38,090 nt of DNA, taken from the IMG/VR virus record IMGVR_UViG_3300029319_007156, positions 1 through 38,090 of that record; one strand, written 5' to 3'. The DNA is from a virus. The position numbers and the translations under genes were made by a program. The first letter of the stretch is position 1, and each line of letters begins with the position of its first letter. Below are positions 28,924 through 38,090 of this stretch, one piece after another. Below the pieces are notes generated by a model that saw nothing but the letters and a program-made list of their open reading frames with translations, had not been told where the DNA came from and did not search any database.

Positions 28924-29312
28924 TTTTTTGGTTTCTCCGATGTTACGAACTTTGCAGCTTTTCTAAATTGACTTATACCCAACACGATGTCTACATTATT
29001 TTCATCGTATTCAAAGGCATAAAAACTTTGTAGGTCATATTGTTTTTTTCTAATATCAAACCATACGTGGTCGTATTGAGTCATATCACTACGTTTAATA
29101 AATGTAGTACTTTTTAATTTAGCCTCGGCGTCTTTGATAAACTTTTTCAGTTCACTTGTTTTAAGGTCTTCATAATAAAAAACGTAATTAATGGGTACCT
29201 TTATCATAGGTTCTGATTCACTTAACATATCCATTACCATACTATATAATGGCTCTTGTATAAAGTCATCTATTTTTAGCCTGAGACTTATTTTAATTGT
29301 GTCGTATTTCAT
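28920..29312 (-). CDS. Hypothetical protein, 130 residues
   Basis: No family recognised. The sequence is mixed alpha/beta with a strand-rich N-terminus (MKYDTIKISLRLKI) and a FAFEYDENN-like turn. The ATG shares a base with the nuclease stop (TAATG). It lies in the nucleic-acid block between the Cas4-like nuclease and the SLOG gene, so a role in replication or DNA maintenance is possible but not shown. Confidence 0.55.
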   Translation of the reverse strand: MKYDTIKISLRLKIDDFIQEPLYSMVMDMLSESEPMIKVPINYVFYYEDLKTSELKKFIKDAEAKLKSTTFIKRSDMTQYDHVWFDIRKKQYDLQSFYAFEYDENNVDIVLGISQFRKAAKFVTSEKPKK

Positions 29313-30148
29313 TATAGTGTTTTGCAGTTAGTGAAAGCCTTACATTTTGATGTACACTTTTCATATTCAATATTTCTCACGTTACCATTTTCGTCATAAC
29401 AGGCATCCAAAAACTCTTCAAATCTTGCTCTCATTTTATTCATACTTGGCTTACCATTTGCCGGTACGTGTTTCTGTACCCTTGGTTGAGGGAAGTCAAC
29501 ATTTTCATACAACATCCTTTTGACGATAAAGAATTCAATGTCAATCATTTCAACCGGTACATCGTGTTTTTTAGAATAATATTCTTTGTATAATAATAAT
29601 TGGTCATTCTTAACTTCATTGGCTTTTTGATATTTATTCCAACCTCTTGAGGCAGTTTTGATGTCTATGATTTTTATCTTACCACTAATCTCATCCTTCA
29701 TTACAACATCCATGAATCCAAGAAAGTGTAAATCGCCACGAATAGGAATAGCCAATCTTTCTTCTATGCCGAGTAGTGACCAACTTCTTTTATTAAAATA
29801 ATTACCTCTCTTCTTTTTGAACCAATCTAATATTGTTACACCCTGTTGAAAAAAAGTAACCATATCTTCTTGTTCTATCATATGGGTTTGTTCTTTTTCA
29901 ACTACATCCTTGATATAGAATTCTTTCATTTTACGTCTAAGTAAATCATTCAAATCAATTTCATCAGCTTCTTTAACGGTGAAATTATACATACACCCTA
30001 AATAAGTTTGTAGAACTTCGTGCATAGCTGAACCAAATATTAAGTGTATAGAAGGGTCAGTAGGTTTTATTTTATCTACGTATTGTAACTTCCATTGATA
30101 TGGACATTGTTTCCACAATGAATATTGGCTATAGCTTACTTGTTTCAT
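29312..30148 (-). CDS. RecB/Cas4-like PD-(D/E)XK nuclease with probable Fe-S cluster
   Basis: Protein of 278 residues. SQYSLWKQCPYQWKLQYVDK at 7-26 and HLIFGSAMHEVL give the first motif, LGFMDVV and IKIIDIKTAS the PD-(D/E)XK core (D and D-x-K), then QLLLYKEYY the QxxxY motif. A cysteine at C15 and C-terminal C265, C269, C275 form the four-cysteine pattern of 4Fe-4S nucleases such as Cas4 and AddB. It likely degrades or processes DNA ends in replication or recombination. Coupled by ATGA to the 32-residue membrane peptide gene upstream. Confidence 0.85.
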   Translation of the reverse strand: MKQVSYSQYSLWKQCPYQWKLQYVDKIKPTDPSIHLIFGSAMHEVLQTYLGCMYNFTVKEADEIDLNDLLRRKMKEFYIKDVVEKEQTHMIEQEDMVTFFQQGVTILDWFKKKRGNYFNKRSWSLLGIEERLAIPIRGDLHFLGFMDVVMKDEISGKIKIIDIKTASRGWNKYQKANEVKNDQLLLYKEYYSKKHDVPVEMIDIEFFIVKRMLYENVDFPQPRVQKHVPANGKPSMNKMRARFEEFLDACYDENGNVRNIEYEKCTSKCKAFTNCKTL

Positions 30149-30644: not shown

Positions 30645-31220
30645 TTATACTCCTATGATTTCATCTATGATTCCTACTTCAAGTGCCTCTTCGGCTGTGA
30701 AGTAACTATCAAATTTACTCAAACTATTCCAATAATCAAAGTCTTTTTTTGTACATTCTGCCATTAATTTATTGCCACGTTCTGTAAGTTCTTTGAAGTG
30801 TTCAGAGGCTCTTTGAAAGTCAGCTACTTTTTCTTGTATACCAATCTGTCCATCGTGAACCATTATACTTGAATGTTTATGTGCCTTACGAGTACCTGTA
30901 CCAGCTGCAAGTATAACAGCTGCTGCACTCATACACGTTCCAACACATATTGTATTTACATTAACCTTGTTAGTCTCTTTTATATACCTCATCTTATCAA
31001 CAATTCCAAACATAGCATACGTGTCTCCACCGAAAGAATTAATGTTAAGATTTATATCTTTTTCGGGATTGATTCTTAATAAGGTATCTAAGTGAACTAC
31101 CATCGAATGTAAGGTCTCGTTTGCAACATCACCTGCTAAAAAGAGACTATTAGTTTCACTATTAATACCCCACTCAAGTTCCCTCATTATCATTTCTTGT
31201 TTTTTAGGATTCATAGTCAT
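30645..31220 (-). CDS. clpP: ClpP-like serine protease
   Basis: I choose the ATG at 31220 (AAAGG just upstream), giving 191 residues; a frame start at 31253 lies inside gp62. The catalytic triad pattern is intact: Ser in CVGTCMSAAAVILAAG (aligned with GQAAS of ClpP), His in HSSIMVHDG, and an Asp in the LSKFDSYFTAEEALEVGIID region. N-terminal NINSFGGDTYAMFGI fits the ClpP handle and oxyanion loop. Phage ClpP homologues may process head proteins or alter host proteolysis; no ATPase partner is in the window. Confidence 0.9.
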   Translation of the reverse strand: MTMNPKKQEMIMRELEWGINSETNSLFLAGDVANETLHSMVVHLDTLLRINPEKDINLNINSFGGDTYAMFGIVDKMRYIKETNKVNVNTICVGTCMSAAAVILAAGTGTRKAHKHSSIMVHDGQIGIQEKVADFQRASEHFKELTERGNKLMAECTKKDFDYWNSLSKFDSYFTAEEALEVGIIDEIIGV

Positions 31221-31665
31221 ACACCTTTGATATCTCTTTATCTTGAACTCCATATCTATTCAGAATCTCTTTCAATTCTAATTTACCACCTGGTGAAATC
31301 ATATACATTTCACACGCATCTTGCGCCTCTCTCAAAGAAACTTCAAAGTGTTTGGCTACAACTTCTAAAAATAATTTAGGCCAATCCATAGTTTTTTTCC
31401 TTTTAACGTATCTTAAATAAATGTTGTTTTTAGGGATAACTTCAGAGAAGAATAAAAAATGATGTTTATCAGATACTTTATATTTCTGAAAGTCATTAGC
31501 GATATCAATAAACTCGGGAGCCATACTGATATATCTGTTGACCATATATTGACTATATTTTTTAACTTCTCTCTCATCCAAACTATCCCAAAATTGTTTG
31601 TTTTGTATTACATTGAACTTTTGTATTCTTTTGATAAAATCAAAAAAACTCTTAACTGCCTGCAT
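31204..31665 (-). CDS. 62: Clamp-loader small subunit (gp62-like)
   Basis: Protein of 153 residues, shorter than T4 gp62 (187). The opening helices (MQAVKSFFDFIKRIQKFN, then DEREVKKYSQYMVNRYIS) and the C-terminal EAQDACEMYMISPGGKLELKEI resemble gp62 of T4-like phages. With gp44 it loads the sliding clamp. The position next to gp44 and the zinc-ribbon gene supports this assignment, which the sequence alone would leave moderate. Starts inside the zinc-ribbon gene (14-base overlap). Confidence 0.8.
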   Translation of the reverse strand: MQAVKSFFDFIKRIQKFNVIQNKQFWDSLDEREVKKYSQYMVNRYISMAPEFIDIANDFQKYKVSDKHHFLFFSEVIPKNNIYLRYVKRKKTMDWPKLFLEVVAKHFEVSLREAQDACEMYMISPGGKLELKEILNRYGVQDKEISKVYDYES

Positions 31666-31906
31666 CAGGTGTCATCATCTTTGAAACGTGACCACAATTA
31701 CCACAGGCAAATGCTTGTATTGGAATCAAGGCTTCTTGTCCTGTTGGACTAACTAATGCCGAAAGTCTTTTTATGAAATACGTTTCTATGAAAGTGTGAT
31801 TACCACATTTTTCACAAGTAACTGATTCGGCATCCTTCAAATCTACTTTGACTTGAGCCTGTGGAGGCTGTTGTCCTGGTAGAGGTTTCATTGGTTTTGT
31901 ACTCAT
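31652..31906 (-). CDS. Zinc-ribbon protein, 84 residues
   Basis: Two cysteine pairs, C31-x2-C34 (CEKCGNHTF) and C68-x2-C71 (CGNCGHV), form a zinc ribbon after a proline-rich N-terminus (MKPLPGQQPPQAQ). Comparable small zinc proteins occur among replication genes of cyanophage-type T4-like phages. The ATGA overlap with gp44 and its position before gp62 suggest a link with the clamp loader or transcription, but no direct evidence. Confidence 0.75.
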   Translation of the reverse strand: MSTKPMKPLPGQQPPQAQVKVDLKDAESVTCEKCGNHTFIETYFIKRLSALVSPTGQEALIPIQAFACGNCGHVSKMMTPDAGS

Positions 31907-32844
31907 TTTATCTCTCCTAATAATTCTACGAACATAGCCATGGCATTGATTTCTTTATCAATACTTGATAAATCTTTTTGTTGAAAGTCAGCAAGTATTA
32001 AAATAACCTTTGCTACAGAACTCTGTGAATCTGTATAATCATCCATTTTATCAAATAATAAAGTGAACAAATCTGCATAGTCACGTACATTGTTGTCAGC
32101 GATACACTTACGTATTTGTTTGAAGGCATCACCTTTATTGATTTTTCTATCTTTCAGTATTTCAAGTATTTTGATTTTATAATCTTGTAATGCTAATTCT
32201 TCTTTTTGAACTACAAGTTTACCATCTACTACTTGTCTTTGAGCATAGTTTACTATCTTTCTCAAATCAGGATAACAACTATCAACCACTAAAGCCATCG
32301 TTTCTAAATCATAATTATCTTTGCCAATCTCGTTATCTAATATCTGAGAAAGTCTTTGAGCCATATGACTTTTACTTGGAGGTACAATGTTATAAGATTG
32401 ACACCTACTCTGTAGAGGGTCAATGACTCTTTCAATGTAATTACAAGTTAGAATAAACCTCGTGTGTTTAGAAGTTACTTCCATAATGTTTCTAAGTGCA
32501 GCTTGAGCATTAGGTGAAATGTAATCCATCTCATCTAATATTACAATTTTATTAGGTGAAAAAGATACTGCAGTAGCAAAACTTTTTACTTTTGTCCTAA
32601 TATTATCAACGCTTGTTTCGTCACTTGCGTTTACATACAAATGGTCACACTCTAAATTTGAAACTATAAGTTTAGCTAATGTAGTCTTACCTGTACCAGC
32701 TCTTCCATATAATAACAAATGTGGAACGTCTGCCTCATCAAGATAACTTTGCACTTTACCTTTTAGATGGTCGTTGCCTACATACTCATCTAATTTAGAG
32801 GGCCGATATTTTTCAACCCATAGTGTGTTTTCTTTTTTTAACAT
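31903..32844 (-). CDS. 44: Sliding-clamp loader ATPase subunit (gp44)
   Basis: Protein of 313 residues (T4 gp44: 319). AAA+ features: LWVEKYRPSKLDEYVGND at 8-25, Walker A GRAGTGKTT at 47-55, Walker B KIVILDEMD at 99-107, sensor and arginine-finger region ILTCNYIERVIDPLQSRC at 131-148 with the SRC motif. It uses ATP to open and load gp45. Starts with TAATG after gp45. Confidence 0.95.
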   Translation of the reverse strand: MLKKENTLWVEKYRPSKLDEYVGNDHLKGKVQSYLDEADVPHLLLYGRAGTGKTTLAKLIVSNLECDHLYVNASDETSVDNIRTKVKSFATAVSFSPNKIVILDEMDYISPNAQAALRNIMEVTSKHTRFILTCNYIERVIDPLQSRCQSYNIVPPSKSHMAQRLSQILDNEIGKDNYDLETMALVVDSCYPDLRKIVNYAQRQVVDGKLVVQKEELALQDYKIKILEILKDRKINKGDAFKQIRKCIADNNVRDYADLFTLLFDKMDDYTDSQSSVAKVILILADFQQKDLSSIDKEINAMAMFVELLGEIK

Positions 32845-33557
32845 TATTTATCTAAAGGTAATAGGAAGTATGTTGACATAAAATCAGAGCCTACACACTT
32901 AACTTCCATTATGCCATCATTACTAACTTTGATGTTTATGGACTCTGCATCTTTATTGGCTACTAACATATTTCTCAAGTGCTGAGAGGCAAATGATAAT
33001 TCTTCTATACCATCATTTGTAATAGTAGTCATAGGTATTGAAACTTTATCAACGTTTCTATTCTTCTCATAATTCAGAACTATTTGAACTGAATCAGTAG
33101 TGATGAATGTGAAGTGAACCGAATCACTTAAGGCTCCACAACCATTGATAAATTTATTAGCCGCGGATGAATCCATTTTAAACTCACCTGTCCATTCAGG
33201 TTCTACTTTTAAAGGACCACTCACAGGTATGATGTCTTTATCGGCTAAATTAAAAGTTATTGTTGTGTCTTTATCTTTAGCGTTTACAGCAATAGGTGTG
33301 TCATCCATCTTCTGAACGTTTAATGTCACGTCACTTTCTAATACTGAAAATAACTTAGTAAGTTTATCAGTATCGTAAACAGGCAATTGACAATCTTCAA
33401 CGTCAAACTCTTTCATAGCTACCATTGCCTTGAAAGAAGTTCCGTCACCATCAACTCTTGTTGTGAGTACGTTATTCTTCACATCCCATAAAGCATTTTC
33501 TACTAAACCTCCTAAGAAATACTTTTCAATGAAACGTGTTATCTTTGTTTTCTGCAT
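32844..33557 (-). CDS. 45: Sliding clamp (gp45)
   Basis: Protein of 237 residues (T4 gp45: 228). It shows the domain-repeat character of PCNA-type clamps (two similar beta-alpha-beta halves, about 1-120 and 121-237) with family-typical spans such as TRFIEKYFLGGLVENALWD, VAMKEFD and ISVSN-type strands. Confirmed by position with gp44 and gp62. It holds gp43 on DNA and could also, in T4 style, help late transcription. Confidence 0.88.
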   Translation of the reverse strand: MQKTKITRFIEKYFLGGLVENALWDVKNNVLTTRVDGDGTSFKAMVAMKEFDVEDCQLPVYDTDKLTKLFSVLESDVTLNVQKMDDTPIAVNAKDKDTTITFNLADKDIIPVSGPLKVEPEWTGEFKMDSSAANKFINGCGALSDSVHFTFITTDSVQIVLNYEKNRNVDKVSIPMTTITNDGIEELSFASQHLRNMLVANKDAESINIKVSNDGIMEVKCVGSDFMSTYFLLPLDK

Positions 33558-33845
33558 TTATATAACCTCATATTGTTTTAAAAAATCAAGTATTTTGTAT
33601 TCTGTTGCTACAGGTTCCCAACCTGTGAATCCTACTACACCATCTATAGTAAACATTGGCATTATACCCGTGTCGTATCCTTGGTCACTCAATAACTCGA
33701 TGGCCTTTGAATAGGACTTAGCGTTTCCAGGTTGATTAATATCAACTATTTCGTGTTGTAATTTATAGCGATTCATAAAACTTATTGCGAAGACGCAGTA
33801 TTGACAATCAATACTACTATCTATATATAGTTTCAATATCTTCAT
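33558..33845 (-). CDS. Glutaredoxin-like thioredoxin-fold protein
   Basis: Protein of 95 residues with active-site C14-Q-Y-C17 near the N-terminus, an early strand KILKLYID and a cis-proline candidate P63 in GIMPMF, then a C-terminal helix. It likely reduces disulfides, for example supporting ribonucleotide reductase in the cell. The first 29 bases overlap the previous gene; the stop lies directly before gp45. Confidence 0.8.
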   Translation of the reverse strand: MKILKLYIDSSIDCQYCVFAISFMNRYKLQHEIVDINQPGNAKSYSKAIELLSDQGYDTGIMPMFTIDGVVGFTGWEPVATEYKILDFLKQYEVI

Positions 33846-34641
33846 AATTCAATTTTTTTTCTCCACGTAACAATCCATCAATGTCTACATCATCGTGCGG
33901 ATAAAATATACCATTGACGTGTATGTTTTTATCAGCCGTTATGAAGAAAGGATTTTTATTAGTTGACCTTATATTTCTACCAAGATGGCTCGTTTGTATG
34001 TGAAACGTATTTGAATCGTAACATCCATTTAGTAAAAAGTCAACTTTTAATTGTTGATTTATTAATGAATCGTACCAATGATGTGTAAGATGTTCTTTAA
34101 CATATTTTTCATCTGTTTGATAAAGTTCAGCAGACTCTTTTATGAGTTTATAATTATTAAGAGCAGCTGATATTTTTTTAAAAACATCTGAATCAGATTT
34201 TACAACATAAAAACTATCCCCAACACGCCTGTGAGTAATCCAATGAATCTCATATTCTCGATGTGGTAATAAAATCTCAAATTCTTTGTTCAAATCTAAA
34301 TGTAAATTTATAGGAGATTTGTATAATAAATCAGGTCTAAGAATGATGTAGTAATCAGAATCTTCACTATTTATAGAGCAATAATCTATAACATCATCGA
34401 ACATTCCTTTTAAAGTAGTGTATGGATTTTTTTCTCTCCAATGTAATGGATATTCGATTACTTCGATAGCACTAAACTCTTTAGCAAAATCTTTGTTATT
34501 TTCTTCTTCCCATAAATGAGCAGATACTTTTATTTTATGTCCCTGTTCCAATAATGGTTCGTGAATCATAGACGTATAATTATTTTTAAATAAGGGCCAA
34601 GTGCCCCTTAGTGAACCTTTAAATACAATGTGTATATTCAT
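33817..34641 (-). CDS. Putative glycosyltransferase-like protein within the replication block
   Basis: Protein of 274 residues. Its opening MNIHIVFKGSLRG, the ISAHLWEEE-like strand and the central YYIILRPDLLYKSPINL followed by later HWITHRRVGDSF match the layout of 12210-13112 (R-x-D, then hydrophobic P). The family is uncertain, and a sugar transferase is the best guess. It is inserted between DNA polymerase and the clamp, an unusual place, and is TAATG coupled to the polymerase. Confidence 0.55.
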   Translation of the reverse strand: MNIHIVFKGSLRGTWPLFKNNYTSMIHEPLLEQGHKIKVSAHLWEEENNKDFAKEFSAIEVIEYPLHWREKNPYTTLKGMFDDVIDYCSINSEDSDYYIILRPDLLYKSPINLHLDLNKEFEILLPHREYEIHWITHRRVGDSFYVVKSDSDVFKKISAALNNYKLIKESAELYQTDEKYVKEHLTHHWYDSLINQQLKVDFLLNGCYDSNTFHIQTSHLGRNIRSTNKNPFFITADKNIHVNGIFYPHDDVDIDGLLRGEKKLNYEDIETIYR

Positions 34642-37154
34642 TAGAAAAACTTCCCTGCGTTTCGTTTAGTGGCACGAGGCTCATCCCATTTCAAAGCATC
34701 GTAAAACATTTTTAATTTCTTCTGCAACATAGCAGTATACATTTTATTATAATCAATATTGTTTGCTATGAACTTCATAATTTCAGGAGGGTCTTCAAAT
34801 CCTCTGTAAGCGATTGTTTTCAAACCTAATGGATTAGGATGTAAGTATACCCACTTGATTTTATCTGCCGACATAATGGGTAAATATTGTCTTGATATTT
34901 TATAGTGTCTCAACAGGTCATTGTATGAATGTGCAGCTTTTACGTGAACAGGAGCTCCTGTTTTAAAAGTAGAGAACGTGTCACCTGGTTGTCTTGGTTC
35001 TATATACTTTGCCAAGTTCTTGACACCTATAGGTATAGCCACTTTATCAATGCCCAATATTGGCATAGACTTTTTAAAGGTCAATATTCTATCATCAACT
35101 TTTTCTTTAGGTACATCTAAAAGAATATCATCAAGAACGTTCTTCAATAACTCTCCCATAGCCGGAGGAAAACTTGAACGTACCGTATCAATACCCTTAA
35201 TTAACATCTTGTCCACATCAACGCCATTATCATTGATAATCTTTACACCATATCGTTTTTTAGTAATGAACAATCCTGCTTTACCAATCAACTCCTGTTT
35301 TATATCGAATCTGTGTTCATTGATGTTTAAGAATTTCTTAGCAAAGTAGTCATATGATTGATTTAAAAAAGTTTGTAATTCATTGGCTATTTCAAGGATT
35401 CTCTTTGTCATCATAGCTTCAGATTTAACATTAATGTCAGGATGCCTTTTCTTAACTAAGGGAACTGCCGAAGCAAAGATTGAATCAGTATCAATGTAAA
35501 TCACATAATCTTTATCATCATCTAATTCTTTATTGTAAAAATGATTTGTAATCTTTTTACTAAACTTAATCAATGATTGACCTGTCATTGTTGTAGCCTC
35601 GGCATTATCAACATCATAAAATCTAAAGACAGGTAGTCCAAGAGCACCATAGAGTGAGTTTAACATAATCTTTTGTATTAATTGTCGCCTATCAAAATAT
35701 CTATATTTATCATCGTCACCTTGTTGACCAAACTTCTTTGCCAACTTTCTATATTCAACTCTTTCTTCAAACCATTTCTTTAAAATAGAAGGTATCAAAC
35801 CTTGTTTGTCAACTCTGTACAATATACCATTTGATGAAATACTTATTTCGTTGTCTTCCAAATATTTTCGTAGTTCTGAAGTAGTCATCTTCGCTATTAC
35901 TTCGTCTTCTTGTATTATCTCGTGTGTATCTTCAATACCTCTTAAACTCTCTTTAGCATCCCAAGGAGTTACCTTACCCACCTTAGTCTCGGGCGATATG
36001 TTCAAACTCATAATAACAGAAGGATACATTGATGTAATATCTAAGTCAAAAACCCAATCGTGTTTTCCTGATTGAGGTTCTTGCACATAGGCTCCTGTAA
36101 ATTGTTCATCGTTCTTAGGTATAGATTTATGTTTTTTATTAGGAGCTACTACACCTAACTTTCTCATATTAGCTAATATAGCCCCTTCAAGATATCTTGA
36201 CGATGTAAATACATTTTCATAAGGAACATAACCAGCGTGACATACAGCTCTCGCAATATCAATAAAATCTAACTTGTCATTCATTCGTTTTACAAGTCTA
36301 ACATCGTGTATATTATACAAAACAAATTTAGTTCTATCATTATCATATAAATCATTCAACGTGCCTTCATACTCAACTTTAGACTCTCCTAATTCAAATT
36401 CTGCCACGTCACCTAATCTGTATGATGAACGTTCTGAATATGTAAAGTTTTTGTATAGAAACAAATAATCTAAATGTGATACTCCTGCTATCTTGTGACG
36501 TTCTTTATATTCAGACCATCTAACAATACCTATGGGACTCAATGTAGATGCTACACCTGCACCTACTACCTTACAGGCTCTATTGTATAAATAAGGTATG
36601 TCGAATCCTTCACTATTCCAACCTGTAACTATTGTAGGTTGAATCTCTTGATACTTTTTAAAAAAGTCTTGTAGTAATTCAAATTCAGAATCATATCTAT
36701 AGACTTCAACTCCTTTTCTTAGAAAGTCAGGATAGTTCAAATCTACTTTCTTATCTTTGTCTACAACTAAACAAATGTATTGGTCTAATAAACAATCATA
36801 ATAGGCTATTGAAGTAATTGTATTTTCTGCCTTAGCCGGAGAAGGAAATCCTTCTGTAACTTCTACCTCTATGTCAAAATAAAATATTTTATGACCTTCA
36901 CTAACCTCTTCAGAGTCTCCATATGTATCAATTAAAACTCTCGTCTCAACCGGTACATCAGATTCAAACAAGTTAGGGTCATCTTTGTCATACTGATACG
37001 TTTTCTTTAACTTGTCACCAAATAAAGAAACGTGTTGACCTTGACTATCTTTTAAATAAGCGTAAGGCTTGTATACTTTAGATTGATGACCACGTTTGTC
37101 ATCCCATATGTGAACTTTTTTACTTTTTAAATCAAAGAATATATCTTGATACAT
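34641..37154 (-). CDS. 43: Family B DNA polymerase (gp43)
   Basis: Protein of 837 residues (T4 gp43: 898). Exonuclease motifs: FYFDIEVEV (D94, E96), GWNSEGFD (D185), and YNIHD (Y280, D284). Polymerase motifs: A, LDITSMYPS (D372), B, KIMLNSLYG near 495-503, and C, YIDTDS (D555, D557). All catalytic acids are present, so this is an active proofreading replicative polymerase. Starts with TAATG after dUTPase. Confidence 0.97.
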   Translation of the reverse strand: MYQDIFFDLKSKKVHIWDDKRGHQSKVYKPYAYLKDSQGQHVSLFGDKLKKTYQYDKDDPNLFESDVPVETRVLIDTYGDSEEVSEGHKIFYFDIEVEVTEGFPSPAKAENTITSIAYYDCLLDQYICLVVDKDKKVDLNYPDFLRKGVEVYRYDSEFELLQDFFKKYQEIQPTIVTGWNSEGFDIPYLYNRACKVVGAGVASTLSPIGIVRWSEYKERHKIAGVSHLDYLFLYKNFTYSERSSYRLGDVAEFELGESKVEYEGTLNDLYDNDRTKFVLYNIHDVRLVKRMNDKLDFIDIARAVCHAGYVPYENVFTSSRYLEGAILANMRKLGVVAPNKKHKSIPKNDEQFTGAYVQEPQSGKHDWVFDLDITSMYPSVIMSLNISPETKVGKVTPWDAKESLRGIEDTHEIIQEDEVIAKMTTSELRKYLEDNEISISSNGILYRVDKQGLIPSILKKWFEERVEYRKLAKKFGQQGDDDKYRYFDRRQLIQKIMLNSLYGALGLPVFRFYDVDNAEATTMTGQSLIKFSKKITNHFYNKELDDDKDYVIYIDTDSIFASAVPLVKKRHPDINVKSEAMMTKRILEIANELQTFLNQSYDYFAKKFLNINEHRFDIKQELIGKAGLFITKKRYGVKIINDNGVDVDKMLIKGIDTVRSSFPPAMGELLKNVLDDILLDVPKEKVDDRILTFKKSMPILGIDKVAIPIGVKNLAKYIEPRQPGDTFSTFKTGAPVHVKAAHSYNDLLRHYKISRQYLPIMSADKIKWVYLHPNPLGLKTIAYRGFEDPPEIMKFIANNIDYNKMYTAMLQKKLKMFYDALKWDEPRATKRNAGKFF

Positions 37155-37633
37155 TATACTCCTGTAGAACCTAAACCTGAGGTTCCTCTTTTTGTGTCAC
37201 TTAATGTTTTAACTAATTCTATTCTTATAGGTCTGAGACCAGGCTCTATTACTTGAAACAATCGTGTACCTCTTTCAATTTTATATTCTTCATCTGAGTG
37301 ATTGTCTATTGGAACCATTAAGTTACCTCTATAACCTGAATCAATGACACCTATACTATTACTTTGTCTAAGAGGTGTTTTATAAATAGATGACCGAGGA
37401 GTCAAAATAAAAGAAATGTTTGGTATCTCCATATCAACATCTTCGGGTAAATCAAGGTCAAGAATCATTTCAGTTTGAATATTAAAGTCTACCAATGTTC
37501 CTAAACTATGAGGTGGTAAAATGACATTTTCAGGAAAGTATAAATCAACTCCTGCATCTCCTTCTACATTTGCCTTCTTTGAATAAAAGGTCTTTAAATC
37601 GTTATCTAATAATTTTATCTTCAGTATGTTCAT
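37154..37633 (-). CDS. dut: dUTPase
   Basis: Protein of 159 residues with all five trimeric dUTPase motifs: DAGVDLYFP (26-34), LTPRSSIY (78-85), GVIDSGYRG (95-103, catalytic D98), ERGTRLFQVI (120-129) and KRGTSGLGSTG (149 to end). It hydrolyses dUTP to dUMP, limiting uracil in DNA and supplying dTMP precursor. First gene after the terminator and the sigma70-like promoter at 37659-37687. Confidence 0.95.
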   Translation of the reverse strand: MNILKIKLLDNDLKTFYSKKANVEGDAGVDLYFPENVILPPHSLGTLVDFNIQTEMILDLDLPEDVDMEIPNISFILTPRSSIYKTPLRQSNSIGVIDSGYRGNLMVPIDNHSDEEYKIERGTRLFQVIEPGLRPIRIELVKTLSDTKRGTSGLGSTGV

Positions 37634-37658: not shown

Positions 37659-37687
37659 AATTTAACAAGGATATTTTTAAAAGTCAA
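37659..37687 (-). promoter_or_regulatory. Sigma70-like promoter before dUTPase
   Basis: On the minus strand TTGACT (37687-37682) is followed by a 17-base spacer and TAAATT (37664-37659), close to the -35/-10 consensus TTGACA/TATAAT (five of six and four of six). It sits in the only intergenic space between the terminator and dut, so it is a plausible start for the replication transcript. No matching activator site is seen. Confidence 0.55.
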
Positions 37688-37689
37688 GT

Positions 37690-37714
37690 AAAAAAGGGGG
37701 AGTTTCCTCCCCCT
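37690..37714 (-). terminator. Rho-independent terminator of the TonB-receptor gene
   Basis: The minus-strand reading gives a perfect 8-bp stem AGGGGGAG/CTCCCCCT with a GAAA tetraloop (37714-37695), followed by T5 (37694-37690). The stop of the receptor gene is 11 bases before it. It would end transcription from the receptor side and isolate it from the dut operon. The GNRA-type loop adds stability. Confidence 0.9.
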
Positions 37715-37724
37715 AAATTACTAT

Positions 37725-38090
37725 TTAGAAATTGACCGATAGGCCAAGGTTGAAGCTTCTTGGAGTACCAAGAAAGACTTCAGCATTATGAGCTAAGTGC
37801 ATCTTATCACCATACCCATTATACTTTGAGTTGTCAACAGCATCTTGGATGTAAACATCGTCAAGAGCATTGAATAAATGACCGTGTAAGGTCATATTAA
37901 GTCCTGCAATTTCAGGTAACTTATAAGAAGCGTGTAAGTCTAACTTACCATAAGATGGAGTTTTCCATACTTGCGCTCTATCAGCATCACCTTCAACTTC
38001 ACGACTATCAGGACTCCAATCAGAATAATGATTGTCGTACCATCTGTAAAGACCTTGAACACTTAAACCTTTAACAGGCTTAATTGTAAG
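37725..38090 (-). CDS. TonB-dependent receptor, C-terminal end (partial)
   Basis: The frame is open from the right edge of the window to TAA at 37725 (121 residues; the rest lies outside). It ends ...VFLGTPRSFNLGLSVNF, the hallmark last beta-strand with terminal phenylalanine of TonB-dependent outer-membrane receptors, preceded by MTLHGHLFNALDDVYIQDA and DLHASYKLPEIAG, typical last barrel strands and loops. The family imports siderophores, cobalamin, saccharides or similar across the outer membrane using TonB/ExbB energy. It is on the same strand as the phage genes, 91 bases from dUTPase, and appears richer in GC than most of the window. A host fragment or assembly join must be considered. 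Confidence 0.9.
   Translation of the reverse strand, partial: LTIKPVKGLSVQGLYRWYDNHYSDWSPDSREVEGDADRAQVWKTPSYGKLDLHASYKLPEIAGLNMTLHGHLFNALDDVYIQDAVDNSKYNGYGDKMHLAHNAEVFLGTPRSFNLGLSVNF

Follow-up and report, generated by a model that had tools for sequence, protein, structure and literature searches.

A large family of T4-like phages, which are uncultured marine viruses, carries a gene of about 910 codons for a TonB-dependent receptor (TBDR), located between a ribonucleotide reductase gene (RTPR) and the genes for dUTPase and a family B DNA polymerase (PolB). It is close to certain that this receptor gene is phage-borne and functional. The receptor family is real and widespread, and it represents a new variant of phage auxiliary gene. 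We propose, with a probability of about one half, that its product is an active importer of the outer membrane that keeps the substrate of the host orthologue. The findings suggest that the virus controls the uptake of the infected cell while copying its own DNA.

The receptor gene among T4-like replication genes

The window, i.e. the whole stretch of DNA analyzed, is the 38,090-base IMG/VR record IMGVR_UViG_3300029319_007156, which stops inside the receptor gene. An open frame on its minus strand (38090-37725) encodes 121 residues with the C-terminus ...FNLGLSVNF and runs off the window. This fragment alone matches no Pfam model; its full-length relatives contain Plug and CarboxypepD_reg domains, which bears out the original prediction that the residues are the end of a TBDR with its terminal F. 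The following features were identified in this part of the window:

37725..38090, minus strand: 3′ end of the TBDR gene, the last 121 of about 910 codons; the gene continues past the window
37695..37714, minus strand: intrinsic-terminator-like stem-loop (stem and T run) that closes the receptor transcript
37659..37687, minus strand: promoter-like site TTGACT-N17-TAAATT for dUTPase/PolB, downstream of the receptor
37154..37633, minus strand: dUTPase (PF00692, 8.8e-17; phrog_135, 3.5e-32)
34641..37154, minus strand: T4-type family B DNA polymerase, PolB, gp43-like (PF00136; phrog_262, 6.4e-186)
33558..33845, minus strand: glutaredoxin-like protein; the counterpart at the same place in the related locus L003 has a weak glutaredoxin match (3e-4), below the cut-off
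32844..33557, minus strand: probable sliding clamp (gp45 position), located between PolB and the clamp loader and without a strong family match
31903..32844, minus strand: clamp loader large subunit, gp44-like (phrog_168, 1.2e-74)
31204..31665, minus strand: clamp loader small subunit, gp62-like (phrog_225, 1.4e-15)
30645..31253, minus strand: ClpP-like protease (PF00574, 5.2e-35)
29312..30148, minus strand: PD-(D/E)XK nuclease (PF12705, 8.7e-22)

A terminator after the receptor gene, a distance of 91 bases to the dUTPase gene and adjoining T4-like replication genes had been predicted as well. The terminator-like stem with its T run is found at 37714-37695, the gap between the receptor stop codon and the dUTPase start (37633) is exactly 91 bases, and dUTPase, T4-type PolB and the gp44 clamp loader are recognized by profile matches. 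Five terminator-like sites, three of which are overlapping readings of the 37714-37695 stem, were counted in the region against 0.4 expected, and a stem of a G run and a C run lies 3′ of the receptor stop codon in the aligned relatives. The number of promoter-like sites across the region is overall not above chance; the pattern TTGACN-(15-19)-TRNNNT is present ahead of 95 of 144 related pol genes. The nearest cultured relative of the window polymerase is that of Microcystis phage Mel-JY01 (45%), followed by those of Vibrio phages (about 32%). Between the replication genes and the left end, about 27 kb (687-27866, minus strand) are occupied by glycan and small-molecule genes, which by eye are glycosyltransferase-, epimerase-, 2OG-oxygenase-, radical SAM-, aminotransferase- and phosphoribosyltransferase-like; several of them have no PHROGs match.

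It had been asked whether the receptor is truly phage-borne and whether phage genes continue to the right of position 38,090. A scan of IMG/VR for the receptor yielded 306 candidate stretches, 302 of which encode a relative, and the best 80 of the 302 (79-98% identical) were kept. All 80 kept loci contain one or more T4-like replication genes in addition to the receptor, the polymerase being present in 77, and in 48 of the 80 the receptor is flanked by phage genes on both sides, by RTPR on one and by polymerase or clamp on the other. The same gene order recurs in independent contigs from many metagenomes: RTPR, DnaB, UvsX and gp32 lie upstream of the receptor, and dUTPase, PolB and clamp lie downstream. 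In L003 the order is gp32-like SSB, UvsX/RecA, epimerase, 5′-3′ exonuclease, DnaB helicase, ribonucleotide reductase, receptor, dUTPase, PolB, glutaredoxin-like protein, clamp, clamp loader and ClpP. Within the window no gene for a capsid protein was recognized; a 165-kb relative (L247) encodes the receptor together with the T4 Gp23 major capsid protein (2.6e-74). The phages are thus T4-like by their replication genes of the gp43, gp44, gp62, gp32 and UvsX/RecA types and by the Gp23 of the 165-kb relative. The latter also contains a phage tmRNA gene (L247:9378-9797; RF00023, 85.7 bits) with a tRNA-Gly nearby. A tblastn search in annotated phages gave no close relative of the receptor; the best matches, about 30% identical, are on unannotated faecal contigs.

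The gene upstream of the receptor is RTPR in all 41 loci with readable upstream sequence, at a distance of 36-93 bases in 37 of them. Its product belongs to the class II reductases, which depend on adenosylcobalamin (TIGR02505, 371.9 bits with the cut-off at 340.05; PDB 1l1l, 3.7e-101). Among 60 loci selected for similarity of the polymerase and having more than 1 kb of sequence upstream, the receptor was present in 47 and absent in 13, and this distribution requires at least three changes on the polymerase tree. In the TBDR-less loci inspected, the polymerase or its promoter comes immediately after RTPR. The TBDR-less locus L198 keeps the last codons of the receptor and the terminator as well as the pol promoter. 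Compared with L039, L198:2419-4557 shows a clean deletion of the leader pseudoknot described below and of nearly all of the TBDR between two copies of the 8-base repeat ACCAAGAA, one of which is in the end of RTPR and the other in the end of the receptor gene. The 13 relatives without the gene and this clean loss show that the receptor is dispensable.

Origin and exchange of the receptor gene

The nearest cellular genes belong to Marinimicrobia / Neomarinimicrobiota (SAR406, now Fidelibacterota) and are up to 66% identical to the phage receptor. A tree built from 85 rows places every one of the 45 phage copies in a single group (SH-aLRT 100) nested within the Marinimicrobia genes, which answers the call of the original prediction for a receptor phylogeny. 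The tree shows an origin among the Marinimicrobia orthologues, and the phage gene was apparently taken from this lineage. A single acquisition, considered at first sight, was weakened once the divergent phage copies L229, L184 and L203 were added: the 23 of 23 phage rows were then grouped together with the MAG contig L082 (support 91), which was placed between two phage groups. Because of this position, either one or two acquisitions by phages may have taken place, or L082 may represent a phage contig that was binned wrongly or a gene that passed back to a host. On this 4.3 kb contig, the TBDR (L082:986-4266) is followed by the start of a second TBDR.

In a sample of 100 genomes of the phylum, 50 contained the receptor orthologue, almost always as a single copy. 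That every Marinimicrobia genome has one orthologue (12 of 12) was not upheld, as this figure came from a selection-biased sample. The host orthologue is chromosomal and stands alone among housekeeping genes; no operon names its substrate. Only the ancestry of the receptor points to Marinimicrobia as the putative phage host. In 245 genomes of the phylum, no match to the phage polymerase exceeded 34% identity (two matches at 32-34%), and the phage tmRNA of L247 was matched in none of 120 genomes of this presumed host phylum.

The original prediction had feared a host fragment or a chimera. The window does end inside the receptor gene, and the receptor fragment shares 98% identity with its L002 counterpart, against just 65% for the neighboring polymerase, as might be expected if an assembly had joined unrelated DNA or a bacterial contig ended beside phage genes. 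Such an artefact is hardly credible: the order recurs in contigs of many metagenomes with phage genes on both sides, which refutes it for the family, and the mismatch between receptor and polymerase identity is general, the two being independent of each other across 57 loci. The mismatch between the window and L002 is instead attributed to gene exchange between phages. Synonymous divergence between these two is 0.11 for the receptor fragment, 1.28 for dUTPase and 1.42 for the polymerase.

The replication genes correlate mutually in their identities (rho 0.53-0.93), whereas the receptor is decoupled from them (rho -0.17 to 0.05). This shows that the receptor is traded between phage backbones by recombination, partly with RTPR. 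The latter is likewise decoupled from the replication genes (-0.02 to 0.20), and its identities correlate with those of the receptor (rho 0.41); the two genes thus tend to move together. Adjacency alone fails to explain this link, since DnaB-RTPR (-0.01) and receptor-polymerase (-0.07; rank correlation, 62 loci) are also neighbors. High DNA conservation may itself promote the exchange.

The pseudoknot leader

The region ahead of the receptor gene lies past the right end of the window and was read in the relatives. The pseudoknot found there, the RTPR partner and the exchange between phages were all out of sight of the original prediction. The leader GCGGACAGGCAGACGACACACCTGTAGAAAAATGTGTC is common to the full-length phage copies inspected, mostly about 28 nt ahead of the ATG and 12-24 nt upstream of the ribosome-binding site. 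It can be read as an H-type pseudoknot with helix 1 ACAGG/CCTGT, helix 2 GACACA/TGTGTC and an A-rich third loop:

L003:7564-7608: pseudoknot before the phage TBDR gene, present also in more than 100 further IMG/VR loci

In 34 distinct sequences, all 374 of 374 pair cells are standard pairs. Compensatory changes occur in both helices, from C-G to U-A and, at two positions, from A-U to G-C. Double-changed cells number 13 against 2.3 expected, a value reached in 0 of 500 shuffles; in all, three of five measures were unmatched by shuffles (0 of 500), and the two cruder ones, the number of covarying pairs and further pair types, gave no excess over shuffles. Nested folding of the leader is no better than that of shuffles (z 0.31); covariation counts were used because nested folding cannot represent a pseudoknot.

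In a pattern scan of IMG/VR, the receptor follows 113 of the 115 occurrences among the matches listed; the other two are at contig ends, so that the association holds in 113 of 113 readable cases. A covariance model gave strong matches before receptor genes only, the pseudoknot being absent from hosts and from TBDR-less phages, and in 244 genomes of the host phylum the pattern occurs at chance level. No credible Rfam match was obtained at the leader with a permissive E-value, and none at gathering level in seven loci apart from a manA RNA elsewhere. This manA RNA (RF01745) lies at L016:438-638 in a receptor-carrying phage locus.

The leader is reminiscent of small H-type pseudoknot leaders such as preQ1-I, SAM-II and that of T4 gene 32, in which two short helices interlock and an A-rich third loop lies close ahead of the ribosome-binding site. 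They differ from the phage leader in sequence and loop lengths, and the phage leader is tied to one gene family. We regard it as a new candidate cis-regulatory RNA. A far bolder proposal, which we consider unlikely, is that the pseudoknot would be a new phage riboswitch or translational operator sensing the imported nutrient or the phage replication state, and that RTPR, pseudoknot and receptor would together form a mobile module to "feed the replisome" by securing a cofactor for dNTP synthesis in T4-like phages.

The receptor protein and its proposed function

Complete receptor copies are 908-941 amino acids long as read and consist of a hydrophobic start, CarboxypepD_reg, Plug and barrel, in this order. 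The N-terminus of the full-length rows is hydrophobic after basic residues and signal-peptide-like by inspection. The Plug domain (PF07715) was detected with 7.2e-14 in L004 and 8e-13 in L058, and all aligned rows end in F. The AlphaFold2 model built from 46 rows (mean pLDDT 74.8, pTM 0.70) has about 22 long strands after residue 233, and its fold matches in PDB are the monomeric small-ligand TBDRs PqqU, Fiu, FhuA, FoxA, FecA and BtuB, the last at rank 40. Profile matches, model and fold matches thus show both marks of a TBDR, a Plug domain and a barrel of about 22 strands with an aromatic end. Compared with the E. coli FhuA/BtuB/PqqU class, plug and barrel of the predicted fold can both be aligned (probability 1.00); the phage protein differs by its low identity (12-15%) and its N-terminal CarboxypepD_reg extension. 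A SusC/RagA type was rejected: the host orthologue reaches a TIGR04056 score of 57, far short of the cut-off at 368, and no match to this model was obtained for the phage protein. No SusD-like gene was identified beside the receptor in the phage and host loci inspected.

The full-length receptor is under purifying selection (dN/dS about 0.1-0.15), and the protein is therefore used. The single-copy Marinimicrobia receptor, e.g. that of MAG contig JABMOV010000124 (L083), is 60-67% identical to the phage protein over the full length and has the same order of CarboxypepD_reg, Plug and barrel and the same TonB-box-like segment LEVLASRA ahead of the plug; it differs in being chromosomal, among housekeeping genes and without a pseudoknot leader. 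The plug is 88% identical between phage and host. In the extracellular loops, delimited from the predicted strands, 0 of 285 sites carry a fixed phage-host difference, and loop identity is 0.594 between phage and host and 0.590 between hosts. Import is favored over mere masking because of the conserved plug, the shared TonB-box-like segment and the lack of a fixed loop difference.

We propose the following course of events. The receptor gene would be transcribed together with the replication and RTPR genes, since the gap is short and no separate promoter was seen by eye, and the receptor would consequently be made while phage DNA is copied. The pseudoknot would set its translation. The protein would be exported to the outer membrane, where it would use the TonB-ExbB-ExbD system of the host and continue to take up whatever the host orthologue imports, probably a small cofactor or a metal chelate. 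This import would sustain the supply of nutrients during the shutdown of host expression.

FhuA and other TBDRs are well-known receptors for phages. The phage version might serve superinfection exclusion or receptor replacement by displacing or diluting the host receptor or competing for TonB, which would keep out rival phages and bacteriocins. FhuA is blocked by a phage lipoprotein, Llp (structures 8b14 and 8a60, both among the fold matches), and the presence or absence of the gene among close relatives together with the shuffling of its alleles between backbones is as expected for a gene in phage-phage conflict. However, the loops carry no fixed phage-specific changes and are as similar between phage and host as between hosts, and the plug and TonB-box region, unneeded for a mere mask, are the best kept parts. 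Exclusion is for these reasons rather unlikely, yet it is the rival that we take most seriously. The original prediction had offered three functions, namely restored or altered nutrient uptake, replacement or masking of the phage's own receptor, and blocking of rival phages and bacteriocins. Nutrient uptake is the best fit in view of the kept plug/TonB-box region, the purifying selection and the lack of fixed phage-specific changes in the loops; all three functions are putative.

In a narrower version of the importer reading, the receptor would import vitamin B12 for the adenosylcobalamin-dependent RTPR, so that the two genes would form a B12 module for dNTPs. The constant RTPR neighbor (41 of 41 loci, TIGR02505 above cut-off), the correlated identities of the two genes decoupled from those outside, and BtuB among the fold matches are in its favor. 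In the host, however, the cobalamin riboswitch controls a different TBDR followed by a gene for a DUF5074 protein, a BtuB/BtuG-like pair, and this lowered B12 import as the main answer. No cobalamin riboswitch was found near the host orthologues or in the phage loci scanned, and TBDR-less phages keep RTPR. The receptor thus has neither the cobalamin riboswitch nor the BtuG/DUF5074 partner of a BtuB-type protein, which lowers its membership of that type and not the possibility that it moves cobalamin. We consider B12 import quite improbable. The locus with the riboswitch, a distinct TBDR of 664-705 amino acids and the DUF5074 (BtuG-like) gene, observed in the host genomes G013-G024 (L233-L246), is a probable Marinimicrobia B12 uptake locus. 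The receptor could finally be a virion or decoy component, carried on particles or shed in vesicles and acting outside the cell. Outer-membrane proteins can be shed in vesicles, and nothing supports this role directly; the position of the gene in the replication operon behind RTPR and away from structural genes, the signal-peptide-like start and the conserved TonB-box region all speak against it and make it very improbable.

Phage-encoded outer-membrane importers appear in the sources searched here as isolated annotations only. The marine megaphage Mar_Mega_1 has an annotated "TonB-dependent receptor SusC" (PMC9723777); it differs in being SusC-like by annotation, and the passages on it mention neither a conserved phage family nor a gene order or an RNA element. 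In a viral structure library, the like-named marine phage protein A0A8D9FQQ5 ("SusC"; 12% identity) alone matches the fold over the whole protein. The pelagiphage Polarivirus skadi has an annotated "TonB-dependent receptor protein" (PMC10504331), which differs in its location among tail and capsid genes, taken as pointing to adsorption; its record is absent from the tblastn matches of the receptor in annotated phages. ExbB has been reported for Lentisphaerae phages (PMC11361711). A literature search, with most subscription journals outside its reach, found no paper on this receptor-carrying phage family or its RNA element.

The present case is a whole family: the receptor is carried by about four fifths of the readable close relatives, is under purifying selection with the same reductase alongside and is traded between phages. 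It is tied to a conserved, covarying RNA structure that is missing from Rfam. The natural deletion L198 and the RNA element offer direct handles for tests, and it becomes testable whether phages govern the entry of nutrients at the outer membrane while DNA is being replicated. If the host is indeed Marinimicrobia (SAR406), the finding bears on a major uncultured lineage of the ocean.
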